Below are positions 11,982 to 39,905 of a stretch of 48,714 nucleotides of DNA, one piece after another. Source of the DNA: Oscillospiraceae bacterium (GTDB lineage Bacteria > Bacillota > Clostridia > Oscillospirales > Ruminococcaceae); assembly GCA_021201135.1 (NCBI GenBank), contig JAJQGT010000009.1:1-48714 (forward strand), written 5' to 3'. Below the pieces are notes generated by a model, which was not told the origin of the DNA, made no database searches, and saw nothing but the letters and a program-made list of their open reading frames with translations. The position numbers and the translations under genes were made by a program. Numbering within the stretch: the first letter of the stretch is position 1; each line of letters begins with the position of its first letter.

Positions 11982-11989
11982 ATCTTTCA

Positions 11990-12290: not shown

Positions 12291-12894
12291 AAATAACACC
12301 GCTTTCTACAAGATTTCTTAAAGCTTTATCTGGGAAAATCCGAGCATACTGGGATATACTTTTGCCGGTTATATTCCTTTCTTTCATCCACTTGGACATA
12401 GTTTCCCGTTTGTCATCATCAAAGAACCCTGTTGGAGCTTGGTTCATGAGTTCAAGAAAGCTGAGAATATCCGCATTCTCGTTTGTTATCTCTGTTCGGG
12501 ACCGCCTGAGAATCACGTCGACATTTCCAACCTTGACATTTCTGAGCTTGGTCGTTTCGTTATTCGTGCAAATTTCGGTGACGTTTGGAACCTGAGTCGA
12601 TAGTCCAAAAAAATTCATTGCCGTAAGACCCGAATAGAAACCGAATCTCTCACCATTTTCGGAGATATATTTCCGCTCGATTACCTTTTGAGGGCTCAGT
12701 ATGCTTTTCCCCAACGGCGTTTCAGTAGGGACATAGTACACTCCCCTATCGAATCTTGCAAGCTGTCCCGATTCGCAGAGCTTTGCAAGCTCCTTTGCAA
12801 TCCACGGCTTTGAGTAGCTTTTGAACTGTATGTCTGAGATAAATATAGGCTCGTTTACACCGAAAGTTGATTTAAGATACTCGTAAAAATCCAT
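12274..12894 (-). CDS. AbiEi-like antitoxin (DUF6088-type)
   Basis: A 206-aa type IV antitoxin-like protein. It has an N-terminal winged-helix region (FISDIQFKSYSKPWIAKELAKLCESGQLARFDRGVYYVPTE, positions roughly 15-55), then the alpha/beta domain typical of AbiEi relatives (GFYSGLTAMNFFGLSTQVP). The start at 12894 is set by AGGAGG 7 nt upstream. It overlaps the AbiEii toxin fragment by 17 nt. The antitoxin frame is intact although its toxin is truncated, so it may survive only as an autorepressor or relic. Confidence 0.8.
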   Translation of the reverse strand: MDFYEYLKSTFGVNEPIFISDIQFKSYSKPWIAKELAKLCESGQLARFDRGVYYVPTETPLGKSILSPQKVIERKYISENGERFGFYSGLTAMNFFGLSTQVPNVTEICTNNETTKLRNVKVGNVDVILRRSRTEITNENADILSFLELMNQAPTGFFDDDKRETMSKWMKERNITGKSISQYARIFPDKALRNLVESGVIYDVAR

Positions 12895-12955
12895 GTCAAA
12901 TCCTCCTCTCAGTGATATTATAGCATTTTCTACCCTATAAGTCAAGAAAAATGTA

Positions 12956-14302: not shown

Positions 14303-15157
14303 TCAGTTTTCAAGTAACTCTTCCCAATTCTCTGGGAAACCAATATGCCTCAACGAAATATCCTCTTTGTACTCTTCTATCAAGGCTTGGAGCTCATTTA
14401 ACGACTTGCTGCTCCACTTTTGCTTGTTCGGATAAAGAAATTTAACCATCATTATCTGTGAAAAAAGCCTGCGGTCTGAAACGAAAGAGCAATCTCTCGG
14501 CATTTTAGGAATCGCACTGAAAACCCATGCATACAAACGGGAATAGTGTGCACACTGGTTGCGAAGGTCAGTCAGACATCTCAGCCAGCTTTTTAAAAGA
14601 GCTGGATTTGCTGTATACAAGTCTTTTGCAAGAGCTTTTTGATCCTCTACCTTCATACCGGCATAGTAGTAAGACATCATACCTATTGAGAAAAATTCAA
14701 TAGCTACCCATATTGGAAATTGACCACCGTATTTTTCCTTATGATGCTTTACTACCATCGTTTTCTTATGGTCTTCAATAGAACTATCAATATGGCGGAA
14801 AAATGATTCTGCATCAAGCTTTGTTGAATAATTATTCACGTCCAAATAACCAAGCGTACCATACTTATGTGCACTATAGTAGGCAAATTGAGTGCGAAGA
14901 TATAATTCGATTTCTTCTATACTCTGGAACAGTATCGCCCGCAAGCGACCATCAAATTCATATATTCTTTTTATCCTATTAAAATCAATTCCTTTGACAT
15001 ATGTACCATCACGTTTTTTGAATGGCAAAAGGTATGCCATCAGCCTATAGTAATTTGCTTGATGGAGAAATTCTATACATTTATCATCATCTTCAACGCG
15101 AAAACCTTTTTTCTTAATAAGCTCTACTTGCTGTTCATATGTAGTCGGCTGTTTCAT
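14303..15157 (-). CDS. Abi_2 (AbiD/AbiF-like) abortive infection protein
   Basis: A member of the Abi_2 family of phage-exclusion proteins. The N-terminal TTYEQQVELIKKKGF is the standard family start; the central FDGRLRAILFQSIEEIELYLRTQFAYYSAHKYG is conserved. A HEPN-type R-x4-H element (RNQCAH) lies near residue 215, suggesting RNA cleavage as in other HEPN toxins. The chosen ATG (15157) gives the usual family N-terminus; the frame is open to 15343 and another ATG exists at 15193. A promoter with an extended -10 lies at 15435-15440. Confidence 0.85.
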   Translation of the reverse strand: MKQPTTYEQQVELIKKKGFRVEDDDKCIEFLHQANYYRLMAYLLPFKKRDGTYVKGIDFNRIKRIYEFDGRLRAILFQSIEEIELYLRTQFAYYSAHKYGTLGYLDVNNYSTKLDAESFFRHIDSSIEDHKKTMVVKHHKEKYGGQFPIWVAIEFFSIGMMSYYYAGMKVEDQKALAKDLYTANPALLKSWLRCLTDLRNQCAHYSRLYAWVFSAIPKMPRDCSFVSDRRLFSQIMMVKFLYPNKQKWSSKSLNELQALIEEYKEDISLRHIGFPENWEELLEN

Positions 15158-15434
15158 TTCAACAGTTCCACTAATTTGGTTATCCTGGCACATTTCTTTG
15201 TTTACCGTCCTTAAAAAAATGTCTCCCCTGGGACACTTCACTAAGTGAGAGGTGCGGGGAGTTCTATCACTATCTATTATATTCATTTTCACAAGAAAGT
15301 CAACTGAATCGAGAAGAAAGGTTTGTAAATTTTCTGTGAACAAACATTACTACATGACAAACAGTTTAGGCTCAAGAAATATCACCGTACTGATATATCT
15401 TATGTGAGATGTTCGTACAGTCTTATCACCTCGT

Positions 15435-15466: not shown

Positions 15467-17110
15467 TTATCCCACCATTCTTTCTGCTACAACCGCACTC
15501 ATCACTTCTTCCGCTTCTGCCGCTTCACTCAAAGCCTTCTCAACCAAGTCCTCACACTTCCATTGTATTTCAATATACCATTTGTCATAGACAGTAACCT
15601 TCTCGATGAAAGTATCTGCCATTATGCAAGTGAGACGGTTCTCATTTTCAAATAACTTGACGTTTTCCATCAAGTCATCAAGCTCCGGCTTTCGGCGGTT
15701 TCTTGTCTTTCGGAGTTTGGCTTCCTTTTCATGGGCCTTGTTCAGCTCAGTTCGAATTGAATCAATCTCGGCTGTGAGCTTTTCTTTCTCTGAGGCAAAA
15801 TCTTCTTTACTTATCTGACCGTCACTGTAACACTCATACAGTTCAACCTTTTTAGATTGAATAGCTTTAAATTCAGCTTGGAGGGTGTCCGCTTCATCAT
15901 TGAGAAACCGCAAACCTTCCCATCGCTTCTGCTCGGCTTCGTCAACATTTCCGCAAGCTGTTTCTAAGAGCATCATCCAAGCTCTAAGCTGTGTGAAAAC
16001 TTTATTATTGAGAAGTTCTTCTGAGAATCTGTAGTTCGAACAGCCGACGTGGTTGCCGGTTTGCATTGAGTGATTGCAGAAGAAGTAACACTCATCATAA
16101 ACGTTATCTTTGTAAGCCATCGCATAACCGCAGTTACCACAGAATACTTTGGATTTCAACGGATAGCGTCTGCCTACAGCGTATTTGGACTGCCTGCTTC
16201 TAAAAATCTCCTGAGCTTTTTCGAAAGTCACTGTGTCTACGATTGCCAGATGATTGTCGGGAATTTTAACAGGGTCTTTAACCTCAACTGTTTTCTTCAT
16301 TCCTGCTATTACTTGCTTTCTTCTCTGACTTATATATGTCCCAGTGTAAAACTCATTAAGCAGGATATTTCTGACCTTTGTACCTGTCCATGCGGCATAT
16401 TCGCTTTTCTCTGGAGATTTCGTCTTTCCTCTTACCTCATGCGCCTTATTATATGCGGCTACAGTGGGAACATTCTCACTGTTCAAAACTCTTGCAATGG
16501 CATTTCCTGTTTTACCATCACAAGCAAGCGAGAAGATACGCCGTACAATCTTTGCGGCTTCTTCATCGACGAGTACTTTACCTTTGTGCTTCTCATCCTT
16601 AACATAACCAAAAGGCACATTGAAGAATACCTCTCCATGCTCTCGCTTCATATTAAATGTCGCAGTCACTTTCTGAGACAGGTCTTGTGAATAATAGGAG
16701 TTGACAATGTTCTTCATCGCAACTTCAATCTGCCGGTCTTCGTTTTGCCTTCCGCTGTCATAGTTGTCTGCAACAGAAATAAATCTGGTTCCTAAGAACG
16801 GAAATAGCTTTTCCAAGTAATCTGCACACTCAACATAGTTCCTGCCAAAACGAGAGAAGTCCTTAACTATCACAGTCGTGATGCCTCTCTTTTTAATGAG
16901 AGCAAGCATTCTTTGAAATGCGGGTCTTTGGAAGTTCGTCCCACTGTAGCCACCATCAATAAATTCATCAACATCTTCTGTTCTCAAGTCAGGAAATTCT
17001 TCGAGATATTCGTTCAGAAATCTTCTCTGATTCTCCACGCTGTTGCTCACATGCTTGTACTCATCCAAGTCATCGTCAAGACGTGAAAGTCTTATGTACA
17101 AACCGATCAT
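15467..17110 (-). CDS. Large serine recombinase, second of a tandem pair
   Basis: A 547-aa TnpX-type site-specific recombinase. It has the N-terminal catalytic domain with IGLYIRLSRLDDD (Ser nucleophile near residue 9), DGGYSGTNFQRPAF and VKDFSRFGRNY. The recombinase domain has VPFGYVKDE; the zinc ribbon has VFCGNCGYAM ... FFCNHSMQTGNHVGC. A coiled coil of about 60 aa (roughly 410-470) follows. The frame is intact. The ATG at 17110 has GGAG upstream and lies 2 nt past the stop of the preceding recombinase, so the pair was co-translated. That partner is split by the inner element. Confidence 0.93.
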   Translation of the reverse strand: MIGLYIRLSRLDDDLDEYKHVSNSVENQRRFLNEYLEEFPDLRTEDVDEFIDGGYSGTNFQRPAFQRMLALIKKRGITTVIVKDFSRFGRNYVECADYLEKLFPFLGTRFISVADNYDSGRQNEDRQIEVAMKNIVNSYYSQDLSQKVTATFNMKREHGEVFFNVPFGYVKDEKHKGKVLVDEEAAKIVRRIFSLACDGKTGNAIARVLNSENVPTVAAYNKAHEVRGKTKSPEKSEYAAWTGTKVRNILLNEFYTGTYISQRRKQVIAGMKKTVEVKDPVKIPDNHLAIVDTVTFEKAQEIFRSRQSKYAVGRRYPLKSKVFCGNCGYAMAYKDNVYDECYFFCNHSMQTGNHVGCSNYRFSEELLNNKVFTQLRAWMMLLETACGNVDEAEQKRWEGLRFLNDEADTLQAEFKAIQSKKVELYECYSDGQISKEDFASEKEKLTAEIDSIRTELNKAHEKEAKLRKTRNRRKPELDDLMENVKLFENENRLTCIMADTFIEKVTVYDKWYIEIQWKCEDLVEKALSEAAEAEEVMSAVVAERMVG

Positions 17111-17114
17111 CAAA

Positions 17115-18348
17115 TTACGCTCCTTTCATAGTCAATAACTTCTCAACATAATCTTCGCATTTGAACTTGATGGAAAAGCTACCGTCCACACTGTATTCAA
17201 GTCTTTCAACCATCGTCTCAACCAGTTCTCTTGTCAATCCTCTGCAAAGTAGTCTCTCCACAACGTCCGCCTCATCGTCAGCGATTATCTCTACACTTGA
17301 ATGCTCGCTGAGCTGTATTGTTCCGACACTCTCGCCGCCAAAGTCGTCGGTAAATAACTTTTTCTTTAGTTCTGCCCATGAATCTGTGCCACTATCCAGA
17401 TTCTTATCTGAGTTTAACTCTTCTTGAACTGCTTTCAGTTGCTCTGAGTACGTCTCTCGGATTTCTATGTACTCATCCTCGGTTATTATCTTATCTGCAT
17501 AATCTTCATAGAGCTTTCTGAGTTTCTGCTTAATTTCCGCTTCCCTCTTTGTAATAGTAGCTGTCTGTTTCTTTTTCTCTTTGGAGTCTTCTCTCATCAA
17601 CTGTTTAAGCTTTTCAAGCTCAAGTCCCGCCCTGAGTTGTGTCCTTATCTGGTCGAGAACGAACTTGTAGACAGTATGGTCAGATATGCTTTTGCGAGTT
17701 ACTCCACACGGCGGAGCACCTTCGTCACCTTTTCTGTATAAACTGTATCCACCACAGTGATACCTGTAATTTCTAATCACTGTCCCACATCTGACTTTAT
17801 CGTAAAACATTGCCCGTCCGCAATCTCCACAATAGAAAACTCCTTGCAAGACGTTACTACTTGACGTCTTTTTCTTCTTTCTCTCTCCCCGTTCTTCCAC
17901 GTCCAAGCTGATAGCTTCAAACGTTGCTTCATCTACCAACGCTTCATGTGTATTGGGGATGACTTTGTACTCGCCTTTACCGAAGGTATTATAAACTGTA
18001 GCTCCTGTGTACGTCCTGTTTTTCAGTAAAAAGCGAACATTTAAATAGTTCCACTTGTTGTTGCTCTCCAGATTCTTATACTTTCCCTGAGACTTTTTGT
18101 AACCACGAGGTGTAGGGGCACCAATCTCATTCAAACGGTCTGCAATAGCTACAAGTCCAATTCCCTCTGCTTTCATAGTGAAAATGAGGCGAACGTAATC
18201 GGCGACTTCGGGGTTTACTAAGAGGTGATAGTTACAATCCGGGTCAACCACATAACCGTATGGGACTGCCATGAAACCTCTTTCGCCTTTCTTCTCTTTT
18301 GCTCTGAATATCGCCATGGTTTTTCTTTGAACGTCCCTGGCATACATC
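17115..18348 (-). pseudogene. C-terminal half of a split large serine recombinase
   Basis: Encodes the recombinase domain (MYARDVQRKT, VPYGYVVDPDCN), zinc ribbon (GVFYCGDCGRAMFY ... CGVTRKSI) and a coiled coil, but lacks the catalytic Ser domain. That half lies at 29029-29474 on the same strand. Joining 29474-29029 to 18348-17115 gives 1680 bp, exactly 560 codons including the stop, and reads MKNLINEMYARDVQRKT across the join. The few codons upstream (LIVLYVRYS) come from the left end of the inserted element and are not part of the gene. Confidence 0.9.
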
Positions 18349-18377
18349 TCGTTAGAGTACCTTACATAAAGAACGAT
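18349..18377. other. Left attachment site (attL) of the inner element
   Basis: The core TCGTT (18349-18353) is the last host sequence. It is followed by AGAGT and the 19-bp arm ACCTTACATAAAGAACGAT (18359-18377). The same arm is present in inverse orientation at 29008-29026, followed by TG and a second TCGTT. This is the expected layout of a serine-integrase attachment site with inverted arms around a short core. Confidence 0.85.
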
Positions 18378-18462
18378 AAGAACAAACAGCAAATGACAGC
18401 AGATTTACCTCCGACACACAGCATACAGTTGGGTATAAATTAACTAATGCTGTGCAAAAAAC

Positions 18463-18507
18463 AAAAAAGAACCGATTGCTCTCAATTTGAAAGCAATCGG
18501 TTCTTTT
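18463..18507. terminator. Intrinsic terminator of the ABC transporter operon
   Basis: Perfect 12-bp arms GAACCGATTGCT (18469-18480) and AGCAATCGGTTC (18492-18503) flank an 11-nt loop. Flanking A and T runs allow termination in both directions. It follows the ATPase stop at 18519 on the minus strand. Confidence 0.85.
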
Positions 18508-18518
18508 ATGGAGGTAAA

Positions 18519-19187
18519 CTAATCAATTACCACGCCATCCTCAATTTTTATAACCACGTCCGCCTTCGCCGCAATCTCGGGGTCATGAGTTACCATAATC
18601 AGCGTTTGCCCGAATTGCTGGGCGCAATCTCTGAGAAGCTGAATCGTCGTCTCGCCGTTTTTCTTGTCGAGGTTTCCAGTCGGCTCGTCCGCAAAGATGA
18701 GCTGAGGCTTTGCGAGAACCGAGCGAGCTATAGCAACTCTCTGCTGTTCGCCGCCCGAAAGCTCTGTCGGGTATTTCTTGAGCTTGTCGGCGATTCCAAG
18801 AAGCTCCGTCACGTTTTTGAGAAACTCCGGATCGGGCTTCTTGTTGTCAAGCTTCATCGGCATGCAGATGTTCGTAAGCACCGTGTACTCGTCGAGGAGA
18901 TTGAACTGCTGGAACACGAATCCCATGTGCCTGCGCCTGAATTCCGCCATTTTCGCATCGGGATAGGAATATAAATCCTCGTCGCCCAAGTAGATATTGC
19001 CCGAAGTGGGTTCGTCGAGACCGCCCAGGATATGCAAAAGCGTCGACTTGCCCGAGCCGCTTCTTCCGATGATGGTGTAGAAAAGTCCCTCTTCGAACTC
19101 AGCACTCACGCCGTTCAGTGCGTGGGTTTCACCCGATTCCGCTTTGTAGGTTTTGTAAATGTCCTTTGCTCTTAATACTGTACTCAT
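18519..19187 (-). CDS. ABC transporter ATP-binding protein (MacB/LolD-like)
   Basis: A 222-aa ATPase partner of the FtsX-type permease encoded just upstream. It has Walker A GRSGSGKST, Q-loop (FQQFNLL), signature LSGGEQQR, Walker B LIFADEPTGNLD and H-loop THD. The ATG at 19187 is preceded by AGGAG at 8 nt; the frame is open 11 codons further. The permease stop is 35 nt upstream. MacB-type exporters often confer resistance to antimicrobial peptides or export peptides. Neighbouring secreted peptides fit either role. Confidence 0.95.
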   Translation of the reverse strand: MSTVLRAKDIYKTYKAESGETHALNGVSAEFEEGLFYTIIGRSGSGKSTLLHILGGLDEPTSGNIYLGDEDLYSYPDAKMAEFRRRHMGFVFQQFNLLDEYTVLTNICMPMKLDNKKPDPEFLKNVTELLGIADKLKKYPTELSGGEQQRVAIARSVLAKPQLIFADEPTGNLDKKNGETTIQLLRDCAQQFGQTLIMVTHDPEIAAKADVVIKIEDGVVID

Positions 19188-19222
19188 AATTTTTTCTCCT
19201 TTACCTGTCTTCTCGGCCATGC

Positions 19223-21655
19223 TTAGTCATTGCGTAGCATTTCCATTAATGTATATCTATTCAGCCACAGTTTAGGAATATAGCAAACGAGGAACACCGT
19301 TATAAACAGGATTAAGCTGATAGTGCATAGTACCTGTGGCGTCAGCCCGAATGTTGAAAGCGAGTCGAAATGAGATTTCAATAATGAAAATACCGAGCTT
19401 CCCTCTTTTATCAAGTCTATCAAGTCGGCTTTTCCGGCTAAGTAGTAGACTATGTAGCAAAGCCACGAAACAGCGAGTGCGGCAATGGCTCTCAGGAGAG
19501 AATTTGTTATAAGCCGGACATTTCTCTTTCGCTTGGACATGCCGAGAGCTTGAAGGATCCCATATTTGTGCTGTTCTCTGTCAGTCTCAAGGCTCAACAG
19601 GCTCACAATGATAAATGCTGAAATAAGGGCTATGCATCCGCTGGTGACAAACAGGAGTATCAGTGATTGCAGATAAGTCTGAGCTTGAGTGGAGTATGTT
19701 TCCCTTTCATTTATCATGGCAAGGTCATTGTTATTAACAATTTCAGAAACCACAGAATCTGTCAGCAGATACTCAGCATTTGAATCGGCAAAGGCAAACG
19801 CTCTCAAGAATTCCGCAGTGTCGCCATGCTCATAGTATAGTGCACCTGTTCCAAGAGTCTTTCCCTCCGGTATTACATCTATCATCTTTTGAAGAAACGC
19901 CCTTGAGCATACAACGCTGTAAGAAGCATCGAATATGTCGAAGCCATAATTGACTCCAAGATAGCTTGTTGCACGATATATACTGATACCGCCGACGACA
20001 GTTTCAATGTCTTCGCCAAACAGTGTGACGGTCAACGACTCATCCTTGTCCGGAATGACAGAGTCTTCGTCGGTGGACGGAAATGACAGAACGACGCAGT
20101 CGCCATTCTCGAAAGCTTCAAGATCAACCTTTGACAGGTCGAATAAATCTATATCTGCTGATGAATCTATGACGTACACCGATACCCTTACATCGTCAAC
20201 CTCTTCTGTTGACAGGGTGATATTTGCGTCGGATGAGCTGAACCATGTGAAGCCCCAGACATTGGAAACTCCTATGGTGTCTGCAATGCTGTCAATCACA
20301 TCATCGGTTACAAAAGTCCTCTCCGAGCTGAATTGTACAGTACTTCCATGAATCCAATATGAGGGATAGGTTGAATACAGTCTGTAACGGTATACAGAAT
20401 TCATTGATGTTGCCAAGGAGTAAATTACAGTGTAGCACAAGACAATTGGCATGATGACAATCAGGATTTTCTGCATCCTTGTGGAGCGGCGTCTCGATTT
20501 TGCCGTCATTCCCATTCTGCCGGTTAGAGGAGTTACGAGCGCGGATATAATCGTTATCATCCTGATAACAAGTGTTCCTAAAATCCACAAGAGAACGGCT
20601 ACTATAATGGCATTCCACGGAATGCTTACTACGACAGTAGCCGAGCCGGAAAAGAGGCTTATTGTCAGAAGAAGCCATGTTCCAAGTGCGCCAAAAACTG
20701 TTCCCAGAATCATCGATGGAATACACAGAAGAAGCGTCTCCAACGTAACAAGCAGTATAAGCTGTCCTTTTGTTCCCCCAAGGCTTCTCATACGCACAAT
20801 ACGCCTGACGTCCGACTGGATCTGAAGAATATAGACGATGATCACTGCAAAAATTGCTACTGCGAAAACGAGAGTCATATAGAACGAGTTGGACTCAGCC
20901 TCGGATTCTCCGATGGTAACAGCACGGTTTACGTTTATCACTTGAACAGAGGTGCCGGTGTGATTTGCTCGAAGGTAGCTGTTGACCTCGTCCTTTACAA
21001 CGCTTTCGTAACCGGATTTTACGGAGAAGAAATAGGAGGTCTGCGGTTCGAAGCTACTGCCAACAGAATTCAGTATTTCATCCGCATCATCCTGACATAT
21101 TATAGCACCATTAAGCGTGCCAGAGGTAGTGTTCCAGACATTTGAATACTCCTTGATAACGCCACAAAGGGTAAACGTTTTGGTGACATAAGCTGAATCG
21201 TCGCCTGAGCCGCAGGAAATAGTTAAGGTAATCTCCTGCCCTACTATGTAATCATATCCAAGCTCGCTAAGCAAATCAGCCTCCATAGCTATTTCGCCGG
21301 AGGCTTTCGGTAGGTGACCCTGATTCAGAGAGACACCGAACCCAACAAAATTGTCGTCAACAACTCCGATGCTTGTGCTTCCGACCGTTCCATATGAGAC
21401 TGTTATCCCTGTGCTGTCAATTCCCTCTATACTGTTAAGAAAATCCTCATCCCCATCTTCTCCATATATGATACCGGCATACCATGAGCCATATTCAGAA
21501 ATACGATAGTTCGAATTTGTAGCTGTAATACTGTCTGCATAGCTCAAAGACATAACAGCAAACGCAAACGAAATCGTCAAAACAGTAATTATCATTACTG
21601 ACTGGCGCTTTCTTCGTTTGATGCCCTGAAATGCCAATGAAAATATATACTTCAT
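19223..21655 (-). CDS. FtsX-family ABC transporter permease
   Basis: An 810-aa permease with an N-terminal membrane segment (residues about 17-42), a long extracellular region, and a first FtsX block (about 260-385: MTLVFAVAIFAVIIVYILQIQSD, IVRMRSLGGTKGQL). A second extracellular region and a second FtsX block (about 680-800: ALGMSKRKRNVRLITNSLLRA) follow. GGAGG lies 6 nt before the ATG at 21655. Co-transcribed with the ATPase downstream and probably with the secreted Cys-rich protein upstream. Likely a mechanotransmission-type exporter or peptide-resistance pump. Confidence 0.92.
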   Translation of the reverse strand: MKYIFSLAFQGIKRRKRQSVMIITVLTISFAFAVMSLSYADSITATNSNYRISEYGSWYAGIIYGEDGDEDFLNSIEGIDSTGITVSYGTVGSTSIGVVDDNFVGFGVSLNQGHLPKASGEIAMEADLLSELGYDYIVGQEITLTISCGSGDDSAYVTKTFTLCGVIKEYSNVWNTTSGTLNGAIICQDDADEILNSVGSSFEPQTSYFFSVKSGYESVVKDEVNSYLRANHTGTSVQVINVNRAVTIGESEAESNSFYMTLVFAVAIFAVIIVYILQIQSDVRRIVRMRSLGGTKGQLILLVTLETLLLCIPSMILGTVFGALGTWLLLTISLFSGSATVVVSIPWNAIIVAVLLWILGTLVIRMITIISALVTPLTGRMGMTAKSRRRSTRMQKILIVIMPIVLCYTVIYSLATSMNSVYRYRLYSTYPSYWIHGSTVQFSSERTFVTDDVIDSIADTIGVSNVWGFTWFSSSDANITLSTEEVDDVRVSVYVIDSSADIDLFDLSKVDLEAFENGDCVVLSFPSTDEDSVIPDKDESLTVTLFGEDIETVVGGISIYRATSYLGVNYGFDIFDASYSVVCSRAFLQKMIDVIPEGKTLGTGALYYEHGDTAEFLRAFAFADSNAEYLLTDSVVSEIVNNNDLAMINERETYSTQAQTYLQSLILLFVTSGCIALISAFIIVSLLSLETDREQHKYGILQALGMSKRKRNVRLITNSLLRAIAALAVSWLCYIVYYLAGKADLIDLIKEGSSVFSLLKSHFDSLSTFGLTPQVLCTISLILFITVFLVCYIPKLWLNRYTLMEMLRND

Positions 21656-21717
21656 ATTTTTCCTCCTCCAAACTTGTCTCTGAGTCAACAGACAGTATCA
21701 TCAGCAAGCCTTAATTA

Positions 21718-22071
21718 TCAATCCCATCCTTCGCACGAAGTAAAAACATCCTCGTATTGCTGAGGATAGAAATGTACGGTGAAAGTTTTTCCACAATCGT
21801 TGCATGTGCAGTTAGTTACGTATTCGTATCGTATATAAGTATCTGTACCGTAAGTGTAATGCGAACAAGAGGTATGATATGTATATACATATGAGCGAAC
21901 TGTTACTCCTGTTGCGTTGTATGATTCACAATAGGGGCATGCAATAATTAACGCTCTTGTTGAGTTTGCAGAATTAGTCTCTTCTGATGTTGCTTCCGCC
22001 GCGAACGAGAACGAACACATAACAGTCAAAACGAGTACCATTGCTAATAAGATTGATAATACTTTTTTCAT
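21718..22071 (-). CDS. Small secreted Cys-rich protein
   Basis: A 117-aa protein with a clear signal peptide (MKKVLSILLAMVLVLTVMCS, then FSFAA at about 24). The mature part is rich in Tyr and Thr and has paired cysteines (CPYC, CNDC) resembling a zinc-ribbon or disulfide scaffold, plus CEGWD at the C-terminus. GGAGG lies 7 nt before the ATG. It heads the operon with the FtsX-type transporter. It could be the exported substrate, an effector or an accessory sensor. No family recognised. Confidence 0.75.
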   Translation of the reverse strand: MKKVLSILLAMVLVLTVMCSFSFAAEATSEETNSANSTRALIIACPYCESYNATGVTVRSYVYTYHTSCSHYTYGTDTYIRYEYVTNCTCNDCGKTFTVHFYPQQYEDVFTSCEGWD

Positions 22072-22167
22072 AAGGATTCCTCCAAAAATATTTTATTCAG
22101 ACGTTCCGACCCTTTCCGCCTACTCGCGCGCTGAAAGCAAAAAGTCTCGAAAGTAGTCTGTAAAAAT

Positions 22168-22196
22168 AGGGTAGCAAAATTTTTTCAAATTGTCAA
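22168..22196 (-). promoter_or_regulatory. Promoter of the secreted protein/ABC operon
   Basis: On the minus strand a perfect TTGACA (22191-22196) is followed after 17 nt by TACCCT (22168-22173). The poor -10 suggests dependence on an activator. The palindrome at 22204-22222 lies 7 nt upstream of the -35. Confidence 0.55.
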
Positions 22197-22203
22197 CCGA
22201 AGG

Positions 22204-22222
22204 CGTTGCGTGGGACGCAACG
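22204..22222. promoter_or_regulatory. Palindromic operator between divergent promoters
   Basis: CGTTGCGTGGGACGCAACG has perfect 8-bp arms around GGG. It sits midway between two divergent -35 hexamers (22191-22196 minus, 22232-22237 plus). The position fits a dimeric regulator, probably the XRE-TPR protein encoded at 22520-23428. Confidence 0.6.
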
Positions 22223-22231
22223 GTTGGAAGG

Positions 22232-22260
22232 TGGACAAAAATTATTAAGTATGATATAGT
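22232..22260 (+). promoter_or_regulatory. Promoter of the small secreted peptide gene
   Basis: TGGACA (22232-22237) and TATAGT (22255-22260) are separated by 17 nt; each differs from consensus at one base. The 5' leader includes a hairpin (TCGTGC/GCACGA, about 22269-22289) before the ATG at 22317. Confidence 0.65.
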
Positions 22261-22316
22261 AAAGATAATCGTGCATTTTAGAGGCACGAAATACTATATC
22301 AAAAGAGGTTATACTC

Positions 22317-22523
22317 ATGAAAAGAACATTAAACAGTATTTTAGCAGTTATATTGGCACTCGTTATGACAGCATCAGTAGTTGCAAGTGAAATCACCGTC
22401 ACTACGGAATTGCCACCGGAAAACGACACGAAAATTACTATTAACAAAGATGAAGAGAAAAAACCGAATTGTTCTCCACATTATGATGAATCATGGTTAG
22501 ATGTAGAAAGAAATGACTATTAG
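22317..22523 (+). CDS. Small secreted peptide, possible signalling pro-peptide
   Basis: A 68-aa peptide with a signal sequence (MKRTLNSILAVILALVMTAS, cleavage near VVAS at 24). The remaining 44 residues are acidic and end in ESWLDVERNDY. It has its own good promoter, and GAGG lies 8 nt before the ATG. Its stop overlaps tail-to-tail by 4 nt with the XRE-TPR regulator. In RRNPP systems a short secreted pro-peptide is encoded next to a TPR regulator, so a pheromone role is a reasonable hypothesis. A bacteriocin-like or immunity peptide is the alternative. Confidence 0.7.
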   Translation: MKRTLNSILAVILALVMTASVVASEITVTTELPPENDTKITINKDEEKKPNCSPHYDESWLDVERNDY

Positions 22524-23428
22524 TCTTCTATTTCTGCTTTAAGTGTTTTAAGAAGAGTCAATAATTCGGTAATATTCCAAGTCCTAGGTGTACAAAGGAC
22601 CAGTGCTTCATTCACAAGTTCTTTGGCTTTTTCTTTATCTCCCGGTTTATTACGGCTCACTAAAGCCTTAGCATTGTTATAAATACAACTGGGAAGCATG
22701 CTAAGATTATCAACATACTCACAATATCTTACGCTTTCTTTCGCAACAGCTATACTCTCATCGTATCTCCCTAAGAGCCCGAGACTTTTTGACAGGTTGT
22801 AGCATATACTTACCAACTTTCCTGCTGAAGTTACTTTGTCTGTATCATTTTCAAGATAACGCTTTAAGTGTGAATAAAGCGTTATCGCCTTTTCATAGTC
22901 TTCCATCATGCCGTAAGTTGTCGCCATGTACTTGAGTATCTGCGCTTCCATATCGGTCATGACGAGCGGCAGATTATCGAGGCTGTACTTCGGTTGTGTC
23001 AGTCTCATTGATTTTTCGAGATTGCAAAGTCTGGTTTCGGCGGTTATCCTCCCGTCTTCATAAAGCAACATAGTATTTATAACATCATATCTCTGTTTGT
23101 TTTGCAATGAAAAGCTGTCGTAATCAGAAGCGATTGTGCTAAGAAGCCTGAGTGCTTCCTGACGGTCGCCGGTTACGTCGGCTTGATTTGCATTTCTTAT
23201 TATTTGTCTGACAAGAATATCATCAAAATTGCTTGCTTCATCAAAATCGAGATGTATGCCGAGCCTTTCAAGAAGGCGTGACAGAATATCCGTATTGACG
23301 TTCAACTCTCCTGACTCTATTCTCATAAGAGTAGATTTATTGCAGATTCCGTTGCACAACTCGCTCAGTGACAGCCCACACTTTTTGCGCTGTTCACTTA
23401 TAATTCTTCCTACTGTCGTTTTATCCAT
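22520..23428 (-). CDS. XRE-TPR regulator (RRNPP/Rgg-like)
   Basis: A 302-aa protein with an N-terminal HTH (VGRIISEQRKKCGLSLSELCNGICNKSTLMRIESGE, residues about 5-45). It is followed by a helical repeat region of TPR character (for example EKAITLYSHLKRYLENDTDK, YDESIAVAKESVRYCEYVDN, KEKAKELVNEALVLC). This layout is shared by PlcR/Rgg/PrgX peptide-responsive regulators. GAGGA precedes the ATG, and a promoter (TTGACA, 17 nt, TAAGCT; 23482-23510) lies upstream. Probable regulator of the divergent peptide and ABC promoters. Confidence 0.82.
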   Translation of the reverse strand: MDKTTVGRIISEQRKKCGLSLSELCNGICNKSTLMRIESGELNVNTDILSRLLERLGIHLDFDEASNFDDILVRQIIRNANQADVTGDRQEALRLLSTIASDYDSFSLQNKQRYDVINTMLLYEDGRITAETRLCNLEKSMRLTQPKYSLDNLPLVMTDMEAQILKYMATTYGMMEDYEKAITLYSHLKRYLENDTDKVTSAGKLVSICYNLSKSLGLLGRYDESIAVAKESVRYCEYVDNLSMLPSCIYNNAKALVSRNKPGDKEKAKELVNEALVLCTPRTWNITELLTLLKTLKAEIED

Positions 23429-23569
23429 ACCAATCCTCCTCGCCAGCTCGTTCCTTTTCCAATCGATTAAAGCTCAATAATAGCTTATCACATTTCACAC
23501 ATTTTGTCAAGTTTTGAACTTTCCGATTGTGCAAGTCTAAAACTGTCGTTCGTCCGTCTCCGGGTCAAT

Positions 23570-23618
23570 CCAAAAGGGCTACCCCCTTTTGGCACACGAC
23601 TTTCCAAGACGGAAAGTC
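23570..23618. other. Two consecutive perfect hairpins, function unknown
   Basis: Arms CCAAAAGGG (23570-23578) and CCCTTTTGG (23584-23592) form one hairpin. GACTTTCC (23598-23605) and GGAAAGTC (23611-23618) form the next, 5 nt later. The stretch 23429-23732 has no convincing gene. Candidates are an element-specific RNA or a transfer/replication origin component. Confidence 0.4.
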
Positions 23619-23675
23619 TAGTGTGTTATACCTTTGCAAAATAGACGTCGGACGAAAACTCAATATGTGTTACAA

Positions 23676-23700
23676 AAGGGAGCTGAAATTCGGCTCCCTT
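23676..23700. terminator. Terminator after the hypothetical gene
   Basis: Arms AAGGGAGC (23676-23683) and GCTCCCTT (23693-23700) flank a 9-nt loop; on the minus strand a short T run follows. It lies 33 nt past the stop at 23733. Confidence 0.6.
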
Positions 23701-23732
23701 GTTGTTTTATTCGGCTGTTTTGGAAAGGTATA

Positions 23733-24089
23733 TCAGTCTTCCGCCTGTCGCTTCTTCCCGAATCTCCTAAATATGAACAGGACAAAATTCCTAAGATAGG
23801 AACTGGTTTTATCGTCAAGATTTGCAGTTGCCTTAGCGTAGTTTGTAATCGCATCAGTTATATCTTCCTCAGTGTATTCGCTCATCGGCTTGTCTGGCAA
23901 TTCACTCACGATTCCCTGAATAGCCTTAGCAGTTGCAACTTCACTGTCTCTTGTTCGGGAACTCTTTCTCGACATATACCCGCCTGTCATTTCACCTTCA
24001 AAATAGTTGCGTATCTGAGTGCAAAAATGCGGGAACCTCTCATGCTCAAGGAGCCGGTTCAGGATGTCAACGTCAATCTTGTGTGTCAT
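23733..24089 (-). CDS. Hypothetical protein of the inner element
   Basis: Unrecognised. The 118 residues from the ATG at 24089 (MTHKIDVDILNRLLEHERFPHF ...) include an EEDITDAITNYAKATANLDDK helix pair and a basic hydrophobic end (NFVLFIFRRFGKKRQAED). The frame is open to 24428, but that part overlaps the start of the primase gene. Residues immediately upstream (QGIGLTPIESQKSYDISRLGLSTESVKRL) look protein-like, so a non-ATG start near 24190 is possible. It is divergent from the replication genes. Confidence 0.5.
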   Translation of the reverse strand: MTHKIDVDILNRLLEHERFPHFCTQIRNYFEGEMTGGYMSRKSSRTRDSEVATAKAIQGIVSELPDKPMSEYTEEDITDAITNYAKATANLDDKTSSYLRNFVLFIFRRFGKKRQAED

Positions 24090-24311
24090 AAGCCTTTTAA
24101 CGGATTCCGTCGATAGCCCAAGCCTCGAAATATCGTAGCTTTTCTGCGATTCAATCGGTGTAAGTCCGATACCTTGCCCTGTGCAAATTTGCAATAACAA
24201 GGAACAAATTTGTCGCTGTTTACGTTTTTCGCTCGAAAACTGACGGCGGCATTTTTTTGCCGTAGAATAGACATACGATCGATCGGAACTAAAAATCAAG
24301 GAGATTACAAA

Positions 24312-24854
24312 ATGAATATTTTTGAAGAAGTCAAAGCGACAGTTTCCCTGAAACAAGCTGCCGAACAATACGGTCTTGAACCCGACCACAACGGCATGGT
24401 CAGATGCCCATTTCACGAAGACAGGCATCCAAGCATGAAGCTGAATGAGGATTACTTCTACTGTTTCGGATGTGGAGCTACGGGAGATGTAATTGAACTG
24501 ACAGGAAGGCTTTTCAGCCTGACACCCTACGAAGCCGCAAGGAAGCTAATGGAGGATTTCGGAATCAAGCCAAGCGACAAGCCAATAGTCTATCACAAAA
24601 GCACTTGGGAGCAGGACATGGACATACTGTTCCGGCATCTACGGATATTGAAACGTTGGAAAGAACGGTATGCTCCGAAGTCACCGGAAGATATTCCGGA
24701 CAGACGCTTTATTGAAGCCTGCCAGAATCTTGAGTATGTAACTTATCTTGTAGATAAGCTCACTTTCTCGGATAAGGACGAACGAACGGCACTAATGGAC
24801 GAACTTCACGAAAGCGGATATATTGAGAGGCTCCGAAAAGAGGTGTTAGTGTGA
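24312..24854 (+). CDS. CHC2-type zinc-finger primase protein
   Basis: A 180-aa protein with the DnaG-type zinc-binding domain: Cys32-Pro-Phe-His35 and Cys51-Phe-Gly-Cys54, followed by the GDVIELTGRLFSLTPYEAARKLMEDFGI helix typical of CHC2 fingers. It lacks a Toprim domain, so it may serve as the priming or DNA-recognition subunit with the helicase encoded directly downstream. The ATG at 24312 has AGGAG 8 nt upstream. Its stop overlaps the next start (GTGA), so the two proteins are coupled. Confidence 0.88.
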   Translation: MNIFEEVKATVSLKQAAEQYGLEPDHNGMVRCPFHEDRHPSMKLNEDYFYCFGCGATGDVIELTGRLFSLTPYEAARKLMEDFGIKPSDKPIVYHKSTWEQDMDILFRHLRILKRWKERYAPKSPEDIPDRRFIEACQNLEYVTYLVDKLTFSDKDERTALMDELHESGYIERLRKEVLV

Positions 24855-26191
24855 ACGATACACCGGTCTGGTTCGACGGCAAGAACATAAACGAAGCCTT
24901 GTTTTGCAGTGAGTTTCTTAGGAACCGCAAGATAATCTTTGCGAACAATGCTTTCTTCACACCCGACGGCAGAGTTACAGACGACTTGCCACTTCGAGGA
25001 GAAATCTATGAGGAGCTTCGAGATTGTGCCGTAAACAATATCCCCGGAAAGATAAATAACATCATAGAAGTCATGAAGTTAGCCGCACAGGTTGAGGATT
25101 TCACGCCGGAGGAAGATAAAATACATCTTTCAAACGGAACGCTTTACCTTGATGGGAGTTTTATTGAGGGTAAACCTGATGTTGTAAGAAGCCGATTGCC
25201 GGTTTCCTATCGTCCGGATGCACCGGAACCGACAGTGTGGTTATCTTTCCTGAGCGAGCTATTACACAAAGAAGATATTCCCACACTTCAGGAATTCATC
25301 GGTTACTGCTTAATCCCAAGCAACAAAGGTCAGCGCATGATGATCATCAAAGGCAACGGCGGCGAGGGTAAGTCTCAAATAGGTGTTGTTCTCTCCTCGC
25401 TGTTCGGAAGCAACATGAAGGATGGAAGCATCGGAAAGGTATCTGAAAACCGCTTTGCAAGAGCAGACCTTGAACATATCCTTTTATGTGTAGATGACGA
25501 TATGCGTATAGAAGCACTCAGGCAGACTAACTATGTAAAATCTATTGTTACTGCTCAAGGCAAAATGGACTTGGAACGAAAAGGCAAGCAAAGCTACCAA
25601 GGATATATGTTTGCTCGTCTTTTAGCTTTCAGCAACGGAGACTTGCAAGCCTTGTATGACCGTAGCGACGGCTTCTACAGAAGACAATTAGTACTTACTA
25701 CAAAGGAACGTCCCGCAGATAGGATTGACGACCCGGACATCTCGAAGAAGATGAGAAGCGAGGTAGAAGGTATCTTCCTCTGGGCGTTCAGAGGGCTTCA
25801 ACGTCTTGTAGGAAACAACTTCAAGTTTACAGAGAGCCAACGAACAAAGAATAACAGAGAATCTGTTAAAAGAGATAACAACAATATCTTTGACTTCCTT
25901 GAATCCGAGGGATATATCCGGCTCAGTGACGGTGCTTCTGCAAGCTCAAAAGACCTGTATGAGGTTTACAGAATGTGGTGCGAGGAGAACTCCCTTATCC
26001 CGCTCAAATCCCGAAGCTTCAGCGATTGCATGGTAGCGAATGCAGACAAGTACCATTTGGAGCATTGCAACAACATCACAAACTCAGCAGGGCGCAGAGT
26101 CTGGGGATTCACCGGAATAGAAACAGTTGCACAAGCAGAGAACACCGCCAAATCGCAACGTACATACATACCGGTCGAATGGGTGGAGTGA
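24851..26191 (+). CDS. P4/D5-type phage-plasmid primase-helicase
   Basis: A 446-aa superfamily 3 helicase-like replication protein. A D5_N-like region (about 90-150) precedes the Walker A GNGGEGKS near 170, a Walker B LLCVDDDM, and a sensor-like LLAFSNGD. The C-terminus holds a winged-helix DNA-binding segment (FLESEGYIRLSDGASASSKDLYEVYRMWCEEN). It starts at a GTG overlapping the CHC2 gene stop. It probably replicates the excised circular element. Confidence 0.9.
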   Translation: MNDTPVWFDGKNINEALFCSEFLRNRKIIFANNAFFTPDGRVTDDLPLRGEIYEELRDCAVNNIPGKINNIIEVMKLAAQVEDFTPEEDKIHLSNGTLYLDGSFIEGKPDVVRSRLPVSYRPDAPEPTVWLSFLSELLHKEDIPTLQEFIGYCLIPSNKGQRMMIIKGNGGEGKSQIGVVLSSLFGSNMKDGSIGKVSENRFARADLEHILLCVDDDMRIEALRQTNYVKSIVTAQGKMDLERKGKQSYQGYMFARLLAFSNGDLQALYDRSDGFYRRQLVLTTKERPADRIDDPDISKKMRSEVEGIFLWAFRGLQRLVGNNFKFTESQRTKNNRESVKRDNNNIFDFLESEGYIRLSDGASASSKDLYEVYRMWCEENSLIPLKSRSFSDCMVANADKYHLEHCNNITNSAGRRVWGFTGIETVAQAENTAKSQRTYIPVEWVE

Positions 26192-26212
26192 TACCAATGT
26201 ATGTGTGTACAA

Positions 26213-26230
26213 CATGTACGTACGTACATG
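26213..26230. other. 18-bp perfect palindrome upstream of mobV
   Basis: CATGTACGTACGTACATG is a perfect palindrome in a short TACGTA-rich stretch (26156-26230) between the helicase and the relaxase genes. A relaxase-gene-proximal palindrome is a candidate oriT or operator. Confidence 0.45.
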
Positions 26231-26267
26231 GCAAAAGCCCAAAAACACAGCTATATAGGAGGTAAAA

Positions 26268-27251
26268 ATGCCAAAAGCACAATACGCAATTCTCCGATTT
26301 GCAAAGTACAAAGGACCGGAGATTTCAAACATAGAGGCTCACAATGAGCGTACGAAAGAAAAATACGCCAGTAATCCTGATGTGGACACAAGCAAGAGTC
26401 ACCTGAACTTTCATCTTGTTGAACCGCAAGGAAAGTATCGGACAGTTGCCGAACAGCAGATAAAAGAAGCCGGTTGCAGGACAAGGACGGACAGTGTTCG
26501 GCTTGTTGAGGCTCTTGTGACAGCAACGCCTGAGTTCTTCAAGGGCAAGAAGAAAGACGAAATTAAGGCATATTTTCAGGAAGCCCTTGACTTCATTAAG
26601 CAGAACCAAAGACCGGAAACAATAATATCCGCAACAGTACATATGGATGAGAAAACACCGCATATGCACCTATGCTTTGTGCCGTTGACGGAGGATAGCC
26701 GCTTGAGTGCCAAAGAAATTGTCGGGAACAAGAAGAAGCTCACCGAGTGGCAGGACAAGTTCTGGGGGCATATGGTCAGAAAGTACCCGGATTTGGAACG
26801 TGGAGAAAGTGCATCCCTTACAGGCAGAGACCACATCCCGCCGAGGGTATTCAAGCAGATGACTCAGCTCACTGCTCAGAAAGAAAAGTTGGAGGAACTA
26901 ATTTCAAGTGCAAACCTATTCAACGCCAAGGGCAGGATTGACGAGATAAAGAAACTCTTGGACAAGTACATCCCCGCTGTTGAGCAGATGCACACTACGC
27001 TTAAGAAGTACAATGTTGCCTTCACGACAACAACGTCCGAAAACAAGAAGCTGAAAAAGAAAAACGAACAGCTCACGCAGTCGCTTGAGAAATCTTCGAA
27101 AGAGAGTGTGCTTAAGAAGCTTGAGAATGAACGGTTGAGGCACCAGTGTCTTGATGCAGTGGAAATTCTGGAGAGGATTCCGCCGGAGGTTGTGAGGGCT
27201 TATACTCGCAAACCAAGCATACAACATAGAAAAACTGGATTGGAAAGATAA
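26268..27251 (+). CDS. MobV (Pre/Mob) family relaxase
   Basis: A 327-aa plasmid-type mobilization relaxase. The N-terminal NIEAHNERTKEKYASNPDVDTSKS segment and the HMDEKTPHMHLCFVP motif (H-x-D-E-x-x-P-H-x-H, near 129) are diagnostic of MobV. A long coiled-coil C-terminus (about 200-300) follows. AGGAGG lies 5 nt before the ATG. It would nick the element's oriT for mobilization by a helper conjugation system. Confidence 0.93.
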   Translation: MPKAQYAILRFAKYKGPEISNIEAHNERTKEKYASNPDVDTSKSHLNFHLVEPQGKYRTVAEQQIKEAGCRTRTDSVRLVEALVTATPEFFKGKKKDEIKAYFQEALDFIKQNQRPETIISATVHMDEKTPHMHLCFVPLTEDSRLSAKEIVGNKKKLTEWQDKFWGHMVRKYPDLERGESASLTGRDHIPPRVFKQMTQLTAQKEKLEELISSANLFNAKGRIDEIKKLLDKYIPAVEQMHTTLKKYNVAFTTTTSENKKLKKKNEQLTQSLEKSSKESVLKKLENERLRHQCLDAVEILERIPPEVVRAYTRKPSIQHRKTGLER

Positions 27252-27275
27252 ATTGAAATGAAAGGAAATTAGCCT

Positions 27276-27491
27276 ATGGCAGAAAACACAAAAGTAGAAT
27301 GGCTCGAAAGCGAACAGGTTCCACGTTTCCGGTGTGGTGGGCAGGAATATATCATGCTCAATGACAGCATTGAAGTTGTGATTGACGGGGTGCTTTACAG
27401 GGTAAAGAGCATCTACATAAACAACCTCACCTTTATGGGAGACGTTCTGGATGCCCTGACAATGGAAAAGATTAACCGGACAGCGGCATAA
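27276..27491 (+). CDS. Small conserved-looking element protein
   Basis: A 71-aa protein (VEWLESEQVPRFRCGGQEYI ... YRVKSIYINNLTFMGDVLDALTMEKI) with beta-rich character, placed between the relaxase and the integrase. GAAAGGAAA precedes the ATG. Many Clostridia elements carry short ORFs just before the serine recombinase. No function is recognised; an excisionase-like or transposon-accessory role is a guess. Confidence 0.6.
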   Translation: MAENTKVEWLESEQVPRFRCGGQEYIMLNDSIEVVIDGVLYRVKSIYINNLTFMGDVLDALTMEKINRTAA

Positions 27492-27517
27492 TTTTTCGTT
27501 TAGCTATAGAAATCTGA

Positions 27518-27535
27518 TGACAGATGCGGTATAAT
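27518..27535 (+). promoter_or_regulatory. Extended -10 promoter motif upstream of the integrase
   Basis: TGACAGATGCGGTATAAT carries TATAAT (27530-27535). It is almost identical to the motif at 15435-15452 (minus), suggesting a promoter family shared by the two elements. Confidence 0.5.
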
Positions 27536-27593
27536 GGTAGCAGGTAAAATCTGTTGTCATTATGCTGCATTCTAAGGAGGTTAAAATACAGAG

Positions 27594-28976
27594 ATGCAGG
27601 ATAATGCAATTTATAACGTAGGGATTTACGCCAGACTCAGTCGGGATGACGAAAGAACCGGCGAGTCGGTATCTATTGAGAACCAGAAGGAACTGCTTAA
27701 TAGATATGTCCGTGAACAGGGTTGGAATCTGATTGATTACTATATTGATGACGGAGTGTCAGGCACCACGTTCGACCGTCCTGGACTGAATCGACTTATT
27801 GGAGATGTCACCGCCGGAAAAGTCAATCTGGTGCTGTGCAAAGACCTTAGCCGTTGGGGACGGGATTATTAGGACAAGCACGTCCTGATTCCCGACCCAG
27901 TAACAGCTCCTGTTGTGAAGCGTATTTTTGACTTGCGTTGTCAAGGATATAGCTACCGGAAGATTGCCACTATACTCAACGAAGATGGTGTGCCTACGCC
28001 TCGTGATTACTATTACATGGCTTTGAGCAAGCAGAATCCACGAAGCGATGGAGGTTACTGGCAGGGGCAGACGGTCAAATCAATTCTTCAGAATCAGGTT
28101 TATCTGGGTCATACAGTGCAGAACAAGACGGGCAATGTGTCATATAAGGTTCACAAACTGGTTTCAAAGCCTACCGACGAGTGGATTAAAGTGGAGAATA
28201 CGCATGAGCCGCTTATCTCTCCGGAGGTCTGGGAGCAAGTGCGTCGGATGGATGAGCAGAATATGCGCAACCGCACAAAAAAGGACGGAACCACTGCTCT
28301 CTTTGCCGGACTTCTCTATTGTCTAGACTGTGGCAGTCCCATGAAGCATTGTCACGAATCCCGCAAGCACAAGGACGGCTCTGAGTCACCGTATCACAGC
28401 TATATCTGCAACCGATATGGTTTTGGAGGAAAAACGGCGTGTTCGGCTCATGTTCTCAATCAAAGGGTCATTACCAATATTGTTCTTCTTGACATCCGTT
28501 TGAAAGCAATGTGGGCGCAGAACAATCCTGAAGACCTGAAAGAGAAGATTCGCCGGCAGAAGCACTCTGCCGAAGCAGAACAGCTCCGTTCCCTGCAAGG
28601 GACACTGGTAGCCACGGAAAAGCGATTGTCCGAGTTGGAGCGGTTGGTTATGAGTGCCTATGAAGACAAAGTGAAAGGGGAAATCCCCGAAGCCCTCTGT
28701 GTGCAACTTCTGCATCGGTACGAGGACGAACGTCTGGAAAAATTAGAGCAGAAGGCAGAACTCACCGCCAGAATAGAGGCGATGGAACAGGTCGAGAGCG
28801 AAACTGACGAGTGGATTGACATGATTCAGGATTACTCCCATCTGGAAGAACTTGACCGTCCCACGCTACTGCGTCTCATCAATCGGATTGAGGTCGGCGA
28901 GCGCAAGATGGTGAACGGTCAGGACGAACGTGAAATCAAAATTTATTACAACTTTGTCGGGTTTGTAGAAGTGTAA
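27594..28976 (+). pseudogene. Serine integrase of the inner element, internally deleted
   Basis: The N-terminal 92 residues are a normal resolvase start (VGIYARLSRDDERTGES, DGVSGTTFDRPGL, CKDLSRWGRDY). A TAG (27870-27872) directly follows GRDY, and the same frame resumes as DKHVLIPDPVTAPVVKRIFDL and runs to 28976. Full-length relatives have about 90-100 residues between these blocks, including the catalytic helix and the N-x-x-N-E-x-Y-A-R-D motif. The gap is therefore an internal deletion with a stop at the junction. The remaining recombinase domain, zinc ribbon (LLYCLDCGSPMKH) and coiled coil are intact. AGGAGG lies upstream of the ATG. Confidence 0.85.
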
Positions 28977-29007
28977 GAAAACTTTAATGGCAATCATACA
29001 GGAGAAC

Positions 29008-29033
29008 ATCGTTCTTTATGTAAGGTTGTCGTT
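29008..29033. other. Right attachment site (attR) of the inner element
   Basis: The arm ATCGTTCTTTATGTAAGGT (29008-29026), then TG, then the core TCGTT (29029-29033), after which the recombinase gene resumes. It is the inverted counterpart of the arm at 18359-18377. Confidence 0.85.
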
Positions 29034-29474
29034 GATGAGATTCTTCATCGGAACGGTAAGAGCATCACCGTTCCGCCACTCGTTAAGAGTATCGAAGTTG
29101 TCATTGATGGCGACGAGTCTGACTCCAAGAACTGGGAAAATCATCTGAAGGTATCTTCCAACTTCGATGTAGTTTCTACCGAAACGGGACAAATCTTTTA
29201 CGACGATACAGTTGACCGCTCCACACTCTAAGTCTTCATAAAGTTGTTTCCATGCAGGTCTTTCAAAATTAGAGCCGGAGTAACCGTCATCGGCATACTC
29301 ATCCACCAAGCAAAACTCAGGTTTGCTCTCTATGTAATCAGTTATGAGTTTTCTCTGATTCGAGATAGAGTCGCTTTCGTACTTGTCGCCGTCATCACGG
29401 GAAAGGCGCAGATAGATGGCGGTTCTGTATATCGTCTGATTTGTTTTTCTTCTTGGGCTATACTCTGTAGTCAT
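29029..29474 (-). pseudogene. N-terminal catalytic half of the split serine recombinase
   Basis: Encodes about 149 residues of the resolvase catalytic domain: TAIYLRLSRDDGDKYESDS with the Ser nucleophile at 25, DDGYSGSNFERPAW, VKDLSRFGRNYIEVG, and VPMKNLIND. It then runs into the inner element and stops at 29016. The rest of the gene is at 17115-18348. GGAG precedes the ATG by 11 nt. The gene follows a DUF6870 gene and would be followed by the second recombinase (15467-17110). Confidence 0.9.
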
Positions 29475-29513: not shown

Positions 29514-29828
29514 TCAACCACAGATGGTGCGAATGTAATGACGGAGTGATTCCTCCATGGATTTCTTTCCGGCAAAGCTTATCTTAATAACCATGCCGTG
29601 GTCGAGATAGCAATACGGGTTCTTGATTTGCCGGATGTAATCTACGATTCGTTCCACCGGAGGAAGCGAAGTATCAATCTCGACTGTGTTGATGTCAACG
29701 AGCGTTGACTTGTCCACAGTTCGCACATCGACGTTCTTCATTTCTTCAAGCTGTTTTAATAACTCCCTCGCTTCTTCCCTCGTGACCGGCGTGTACTCCT
29801 TTTTCTGTTCTGTTTTCTTTTTTGTCAT
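29514..29828 (-). CDS. DUF6870 family protein
   Basis: A 104-aa protein with the family pattern VDVRTVDKSTLVDINTVEID, ERIVDYIRQIKNPYCYL and VIKISFAGKKSMEE. Such proteins are common next to serine recombinases on Firmicutes conjugative and mobilizable elements; their function is unknown. The ATG at 29828 is chosen because AGGAGG lies 10 nt upstream. It precedes the split recombinase and was probably co-transcribed with it. Confidence 0.8.
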   Translation of the reverse strand: MTKKKTEQKKEYTPVTREEARELLKQLEEMKNVDVRTVDKSTLVDINTVEIDTSLPPVERIVDYIRQIKNPYCYLDHGMVIKISFAGKKSMEESLRHYIRTICG

Positions 29829-29943
29829 TACTCTTGTACCTCCTGAAGTATAACACATTTTGCTTTGTAAGTCAATGCTTTAAAGCGATAAAAAGCTATT
29901 CCTTGCAAAATATTTTTTTGGAGAAGGAAACCTTAACGGTTTT

Positions 29944-39887: not shown

Positions 39888-39905
39888 ATCATTCTTCCTT
39901 TAGTA

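Follow-up and report, generated by a model that had tools for sequence, protein, structure and literature searches.

A defective integrative and mobilizable element flanked by halves of two serine recombinase genes, and a recurrent target codon among its relatives

Results

Junctions and ends of the insert

The stretch analysed (the window) comprises 48,714 nucleotides of contig JAJQGT010000009.1 of an Oscillospiraceae bacterium (GenBank assembly GCA_021201135.1). It contains an inserted element of 10,680 bp, one core copy included, between a catalytic and a DNA-binding half of large serine recombinase (LSR) genes, both on the minus strand (Table 1). A preliminary description had placed an insert of about 10.7 kb, with TCGTT at both junctions, between the two halves, and its coordinates were reproduced. 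The N-terminal half (446 bp, 29029-29474) carried PF00239, and the C-terminal half (1234 bp) carried PF07508 and a zinc ribbon. Neither half had a stop (147 and 410 codons, respectively), in agreement with the earlier view that they are undamaged; their sum of 1680 bp was also in frame as claimed, judged by codon phase with the halves not joined.

The 5-bp repeat by itself is of little weight; the boundaries of a recombinase model and the inverted arms are stronger evidence. The model was made from 43 non-redundant LSRs cut at a conserved Asn, which occupied the motif column in 42 of the 43. At the right junction its N part was matched through to the final position (139), and at the left junction its C part was matched from position 1. 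Perfect 19-bp inverted arms lay directly inside the core, and arms plus core formed a 50-bp attP centred on the TT of TCGTT, which reads AA in the coding direction of the host genes. Crossover probably takes place at the final two bases, TT, of TCGTT (AA of the Asn codon), a placement that follows from the AA common to attP and target in a related locus (L104). Breakpoints on both sides fell within about a codon of the crossover. The recombinase end of the element adjoined the N-half, as it did in the tandem type described below.

Table 1. Positions of the insert, its genes and ends, and the flanking host genes in the window (identities refer to the loci and genomes named)
Feature	Position	Strand	Basis
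Inserted mobilizable element, 10,680 bp	18354..29033		Junctions, gene content, model boundaries, arms
Left TCGTT core copy	18349..18353		Sequence
Right TCGTT core copy	29029..29033		Sequence
Left 19-bp arm of element end	18359..18377		Inverted perfect match to right arm
Right 19-bp arm of element end	29008..29026		Inverted perfect match to left arm
ABC ATPase (18519-19220) and FtsX-type permease (19223-21688)	18519..21688	-	PF00005, PF02687
RNPP-type helix-turn-helix/TPR regulator	22520..23428	-	PF01381, PF18768
CHC2 zinc-finger primase part	24210..24854	+	PF01807
P4-type primase C-terminal/helicase	24851..26191	+	TIGR01613 above cut-off
MobV relaxase	26268..27251	+	PF01076; NF041497 above cut-off
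Element's own DUF4368 LSR, broken	27594..28976	+	Pieces 27594-27869 and 27873-28976, stop at 27870-27872
Third recombinase of host operon, gene c, intact	15467..17113	-	66.6% to L062, 67.2% to L209, 75.8% to G758
C-terminal (DNA-binding) half of host recombinase gene b	17115..18348	-	PF07508, PF13408; 58.7% to L062 b, 33.5% to L062 a
N-terminal (catalytic) half of host recombinase gene a	29034..29474	-	PF00239; 68.0% to L062 a, 50.0% to L062 b; 94.6% to G758 a N-half
DUF6870 gene preceding gene a	29514..29858	-	PF21757; same position before a in L210 and G758

The flanks as parts of genes a and b

A second locus of the same genome (L062, contig C9) carried a run of three intact LSR genes, named a, b and c, and a 157-aa gene stood between a and b. 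The same a-b-c row was found in genomes G271 and G605 (L209 and L210) by searches of 197 genomes of the family and 394 of the order; an E <= 1e-45 match occurred in 3 of the 394 order genomes, the window's own among them. The N-half was nearest to a (68.7% in both G271 and G605), and the C-half was nearest to b (57.8% in G271 and 41.3% in G605), so that the halves matched two neighbouring genes in all three intact operons found. Compared with L062, resemblance to a extended through the N-half to the crossover codon and resemblance to b began with the C-half at that codon, and about 2.1 kb was missing, namely the C-part of a, the 157-aa gene and the N-part of b. No close relatives of the C-half or of gene a appeared in the scans of viral contigs.

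The preliminary description had joined the halves into one recombinase, and had named as a finding against this that close relatives carry them in different intact genes; such was the case in L062, L209 and L210. Nor would removal of the insert restore a gene exactly, as had been held: from the sequence, it would leave an a/b hybrid. The in-frame join is no evidence for a single gene, because in both a and b the cut falls on the same conserved Asn codon. Genes a and b would both be disabled, and c looks intact. The claim that one mobile element had disabled the recombinase of another held in that an element was inserted at a conserved motif among recombinase genes of another element, but two genes and not one were affected. 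A regulated excision switch was considered for the window copy and rejected, as this copy has a broken recombinase and stands between different genes.

A related insertion in the same genus

In G758, a genome of the same genus, a close relative of the element had its sole right end next to the N-half of an a gene standing behind a DUF6870 gene. The genome's sole left end lay on another contig, where it adjoined the C-part of a; beyond this stood the 157-aa gene and then b and c. The orientation agreed with that of the window. The two are taken as the ends of one insertion in a. The G758 element had lost most of the primase-helicase-MobV stretch. Identity between the window and G758 elements was 88.0% on the left (18323-19214) and 95.3-95.9% on the right (27255-29033); between the host genes it was 94.6% for the N-half of a, 75.8% for c and about 59-69% for b. 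This pattern fits, and does not prove, a recombinant of copies in a and b, perhaps of two related host elements.

A recurrent target in other recombinase genes

Scanning of genome contigs gave 47 loci of two groups of related elements (A and B), with a readable right end in 43; L143, L151, L155 and L156 had no recognised right end and are outside the 43. All 13 right ends of group A ran directly into the C-half of an LSR gene, in frame from the Asn codon, and 13 of the 30 of group B ended at the same LSR Asn codon. These 26 targets formed 16 clusters at 80% identity and 10 at 60%; only the 26 rows of both groups were used, with L221, WIN and L219 set aside (WIN and L219 having been read out of frame). 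At L135 (same contig as L104), L136 and L128, an N-half lay on one side of the element and a C-half on the other, and each pair is only presumed to be one gene. Contigs often broke inside these elements. Insertions of the window type lay in LSR genes in three of four cases (the window, G758 and one site in G764 with ends L221 and L222), given the authors' pairing of ends; a further right end in G764 (L241) had no flank.

A more distant tandem group, characterised by a pair of consecutive LSR genes, was present in viral contigs (42 loci). Loci were counted if they had a complete second recombinase and at least 150 bp behind it, which left 21; those not counted were an array (L164), loci that were cut or too short (L178, L180, L182, L186, L188, L189, L191, L193) and loci of another type (L194-L205). 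By the model, 9 of the 21 ended on an inverted LSR N-half cut at the Asn codon, and L181 was a tenth by eye. At L185 the distance from the second LSR was 494 bp. No inverted N-half ending at the Asn codon was found in L194-L205, which form a weak control with several incomplete loci. The window's genome contained 20 PF07508 matches in 2.33 Mb, and random landing therefore does not explain the frequent use of one codon.

A family strictly specific for recombinase genes was considered and rejected, because of group B ends and one window-type insertion in other places (see Discussion).

Some further arrangements were seen at these loci. The elements' own recombinase genes had the motif N-D-L, a putative means of self-avoidance. 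In two group B recombinases (L131, 1776-3098; L133, 3702-5024) the sequence began no earlier than about residue 102, with other DNA before it, and in L133 a complete recombinase stood directly before the one with the late start. The viral contig of L170 (4725-10441) carried three recombinases in a row, then a recombinase N-half cut by a tandem-recombinase element. The N-half at L175, about 77% like the L073 recombinase, was cut by another element. In two further viral contigs (L171, L179), the end of the tandem element was placed by eye in a stretch resembling the ATP-binding part of IstB/DnaC, which may be another conserved target.

Gene content of the insert

The insert encoded a MobV relaxase (NF041497, 159.3 bits against a cut-off of 100), a recombinase at its right end, and defined ends made of the core and inverted arms; no conjugation apparatus was found in a Pfam scan of 10 proteins of the insert (smaller open reading frames being outside the scan). 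A working excision and integration function of its own was lacking, the recombinase being broken. The insert is an integrative and mobilizable element (IME), now defective.

Compared with its G758 homologue, an uninterrupted open frame of 543 codons whose C part was 98% identical, the insert LSR had 3 bp, amounting to a stop, in place of 243 bp. It thus lost 81 codons, the motif among them, and had no counterpart to N-part positions 97-139 and C-part positions 1-39 of the model; the insert would no longer be able to excise by its own enzyme. The LSR domains Resolvase, Recombinase, zinc ribbon and DUF4368 were checked on the C piece of the window LSR, which agreed with the set, and all four were present in L073, L104 and the G758 homologue. 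That the insertion was recent, as had been proposed, is uncertain: although the flanking halves are clean, the insert recombinase lost those codons and gained a stop, and the loss from a to b is also needed.

A sister element in the window's own genome (contig C26, L061, 1997-6283) was similar to the insert in helicase (93%), MobV (91%) and primase part (84%), with a tyrosine integrase, by eye, in the place of the LSR. The integration module of such elements therefore seems exchangeable. The ABC ATPase and FtsX-type permease of the insert are probably cargo for export of a peptide or lipid. They were given no resistance function because their listed NCBIfam matches stayed below the cut-offs (none at cut-off for the ATPase among the 25 listed of 191 matches, and a single match for the permease). 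The insert also encoded a small protein whose start resembled Phr weakly, with a score below the cut-off.

Discussion

Proposed origin of the arrangement

Relatives of the insert would often integrate in the DNA for the Asn-[Glu/Asp]-x-[Tyr/Phe]-Ala stretch of other LSR genes, at the joint of the catalytic domain and the DNA-binding part. Crossover at the 2-bp AA (TT) core, with which the Asn codon begins, would split such a gene into a catalytic and a DNA-binding half. At the window locus, a and b, which perhaps belonged to two related host elements, may each have received a copy in the same orientation; recombination of these copies would then have removed the DNA in between and left one copy. 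The lower left-side identity to G758 is as expected if two copies recombined. This action of the recombinase is deduced from the junctions and from general knowledge of serine integrases. Taken together, a defective DUF4368 IME with an Asn-codon target, standing between a's catalytic half and b's DNA-binding half after loss of the intervening DNA, is proposed with good confidence as the explanation of the locus.

Several observations weigh against this explanation or limit it. Outside recombinase genes lay 17 of the 30 group B ends and another window-type site in G764 (ends L220 and L242), in a gene that is presumably feoB. All 43 ends of groups A and B came from one series of metagenome-assembled genomes (titles 'Lapin', suggesting a rabbit gut origin), and descent and sampling may inflate their counts. 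The two G758 junctions, that with the N-half of a and that of the left end, were on two contigs ending inside the element, so that a single insertion there is only a deduction; the C-part of a in G758 had a frame break near its end, and b was damaged. Identity between the window and G758 was uneven along the host operon, which indicates a mosaic history. A genome carrying a copy in both a and b was not found.

Alternative explanations

An insertion in a alone, followed by an aberrant recombinase reaction between its left end and the motif of b, could have deleted the intervening DNA with no second copy. The left junction lies exactly at the b motif and G758 has an insertion in a only, both in favour of this history; the lower identity to G758 at the left end nevertheless suggests a second copy, and efficient recombination of an attL/attR-type end with attB is not known for serine integrases. 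Such a history is considered unlikely.

A single recombinase gene split by the insert, and restored by its excision, is quite improbable. It would account for halves that are in frame and free of stops and for a motif that fits the family, and it would require an a/b hybrid gene before arrival of the element. Against it stand the assignment of the halves to a and b in every intact operon, and the close relative in G758, which sits in a with a's own C-part present; on these grounds the model was set back. Moreover, the breakpoint between a and b coincides with the crossover codon, for which an older hybrid gives no need, and an in-frame join is automatic when both genes are cut at one codon.

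Joining of two recombinase loci across a repeated element during assembly has very little probability. Contigs of relatives often end inside or beside such elements, and no independent copy of the b junction is available; still, the window lies within a contig of 260 kb, the a junction is independently present in G758, and c follows the b half as it does in the intact operons.

The least probable alternative is that DUF4368 recombinases use many sites with no preference for recombinase genes, and the targets reflect coincidence or descent: it agrees with the ends that lie elsewhere, with a single series of genomes in which some ends may be common by descent and with the multi-targeting known for DUF4368 recombinases (PMC10083194, in its available parts), but 26 of the 43 ends fell at one codon in 16 target clusters, PF07508 matches were few in the window's genome, and the distant tandem group repeated the target.

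Known systems

In streptococci, IMEs with serine integrases are described inside the traG, maff2 and snf2 genes of integrative and conjugative elements (PMC5357655, PMC7168690). Like the insert, they are small mobilizable elements with a serine integrase that are inserted in, and disrupt, conserved genes of larger mobile elements; in the available text of these sources, however, the targets are transfer, membrane and helicase genes, whereas here the target is the motif codon of several unrelated recombinase genes. In Streptococcus suis, an erm(B) element lies in the serine integrase gene of an IME (PMC7168690), so that there, too, a smaller element breaks a serine integrase gene in a nested set. 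That element is of 1.7 kb and is a single case, and the portion of the report at hand makes no mention of a recurrent target codon.

Multi-targeting LSRs with DUF4368 have a TT core and many targets (PMC10083194), and share with the present group the DUF4368 domain, a TT (AA) dinucleotide core and several target genes. They differ in that group A was here in recombinase genes in 13 of 13 cases; group A targeted recombinase genes only and group B recombinase and other genes, without clustering by the rule of PMC10083194. The analysis of target-gene enrichment in that source, as far as its available sections tell, used only LSRs outside the multi-targeting clade, and recombinase-gene targeting would for that reason not have shown. 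Mobilizable transposons of the Tn4451/TnpX type have an LSR, a 2-bp target and a mobilization gene (PMC3158075, PMC5704250), a likeness by description; a recombinase-gene target is unmentioned in the accessible parts of both papers. Recombinase genes or the LSR motif codon as a recurrent target were not found in the literature searched, much of it available in part, which does not prove absence in print. That elements invade genes of other elements is already known, and the LSR motif codon as a target is apparently new within these sources.

Implications

Otherwise unrelated mobile elements would have in common, as a target, the motif codons of the enzymes by which they integrate. Landing there, an element would always find hosts among its competitors and stop their excision, and may shuffle recombinase domains. 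As a tentative and rather doubtful extension, a guild of mobilizable elements might home on an LSR stretch that can hardly change, always finding sites among rivals and disarming them; since catalytic and DNA-binding halves meet at this stretch and the frame is preserved there, insertions in two recombinase genes with later recombination and excision would then swap DNA-binding halves between recombinases, and the window would be a swap half way. The locus offers a testable case for site choice by DUF4368 recombinases. For annotators, an in-frame join across an insert is not proof that the halves were one gene.

Other observations in the window

Beside the recombinase row lay an AbiD/Abi_2 gene (14303-15343, minus strand). 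At 10737-12299 (minus strand) a further recombinase shared one open frame with the first approximately 124 residues of an AbiEii-type toxin gene, with AbiEi at 12274-12945, an arrangement that would suit the landing of a recombinase element in an abiE pair. A Pycsar-like pair was present at 39333-41834 (minus strand), composed of a cyclase (40464-41834) and a PycTM-like membrane protein (39333-39887).

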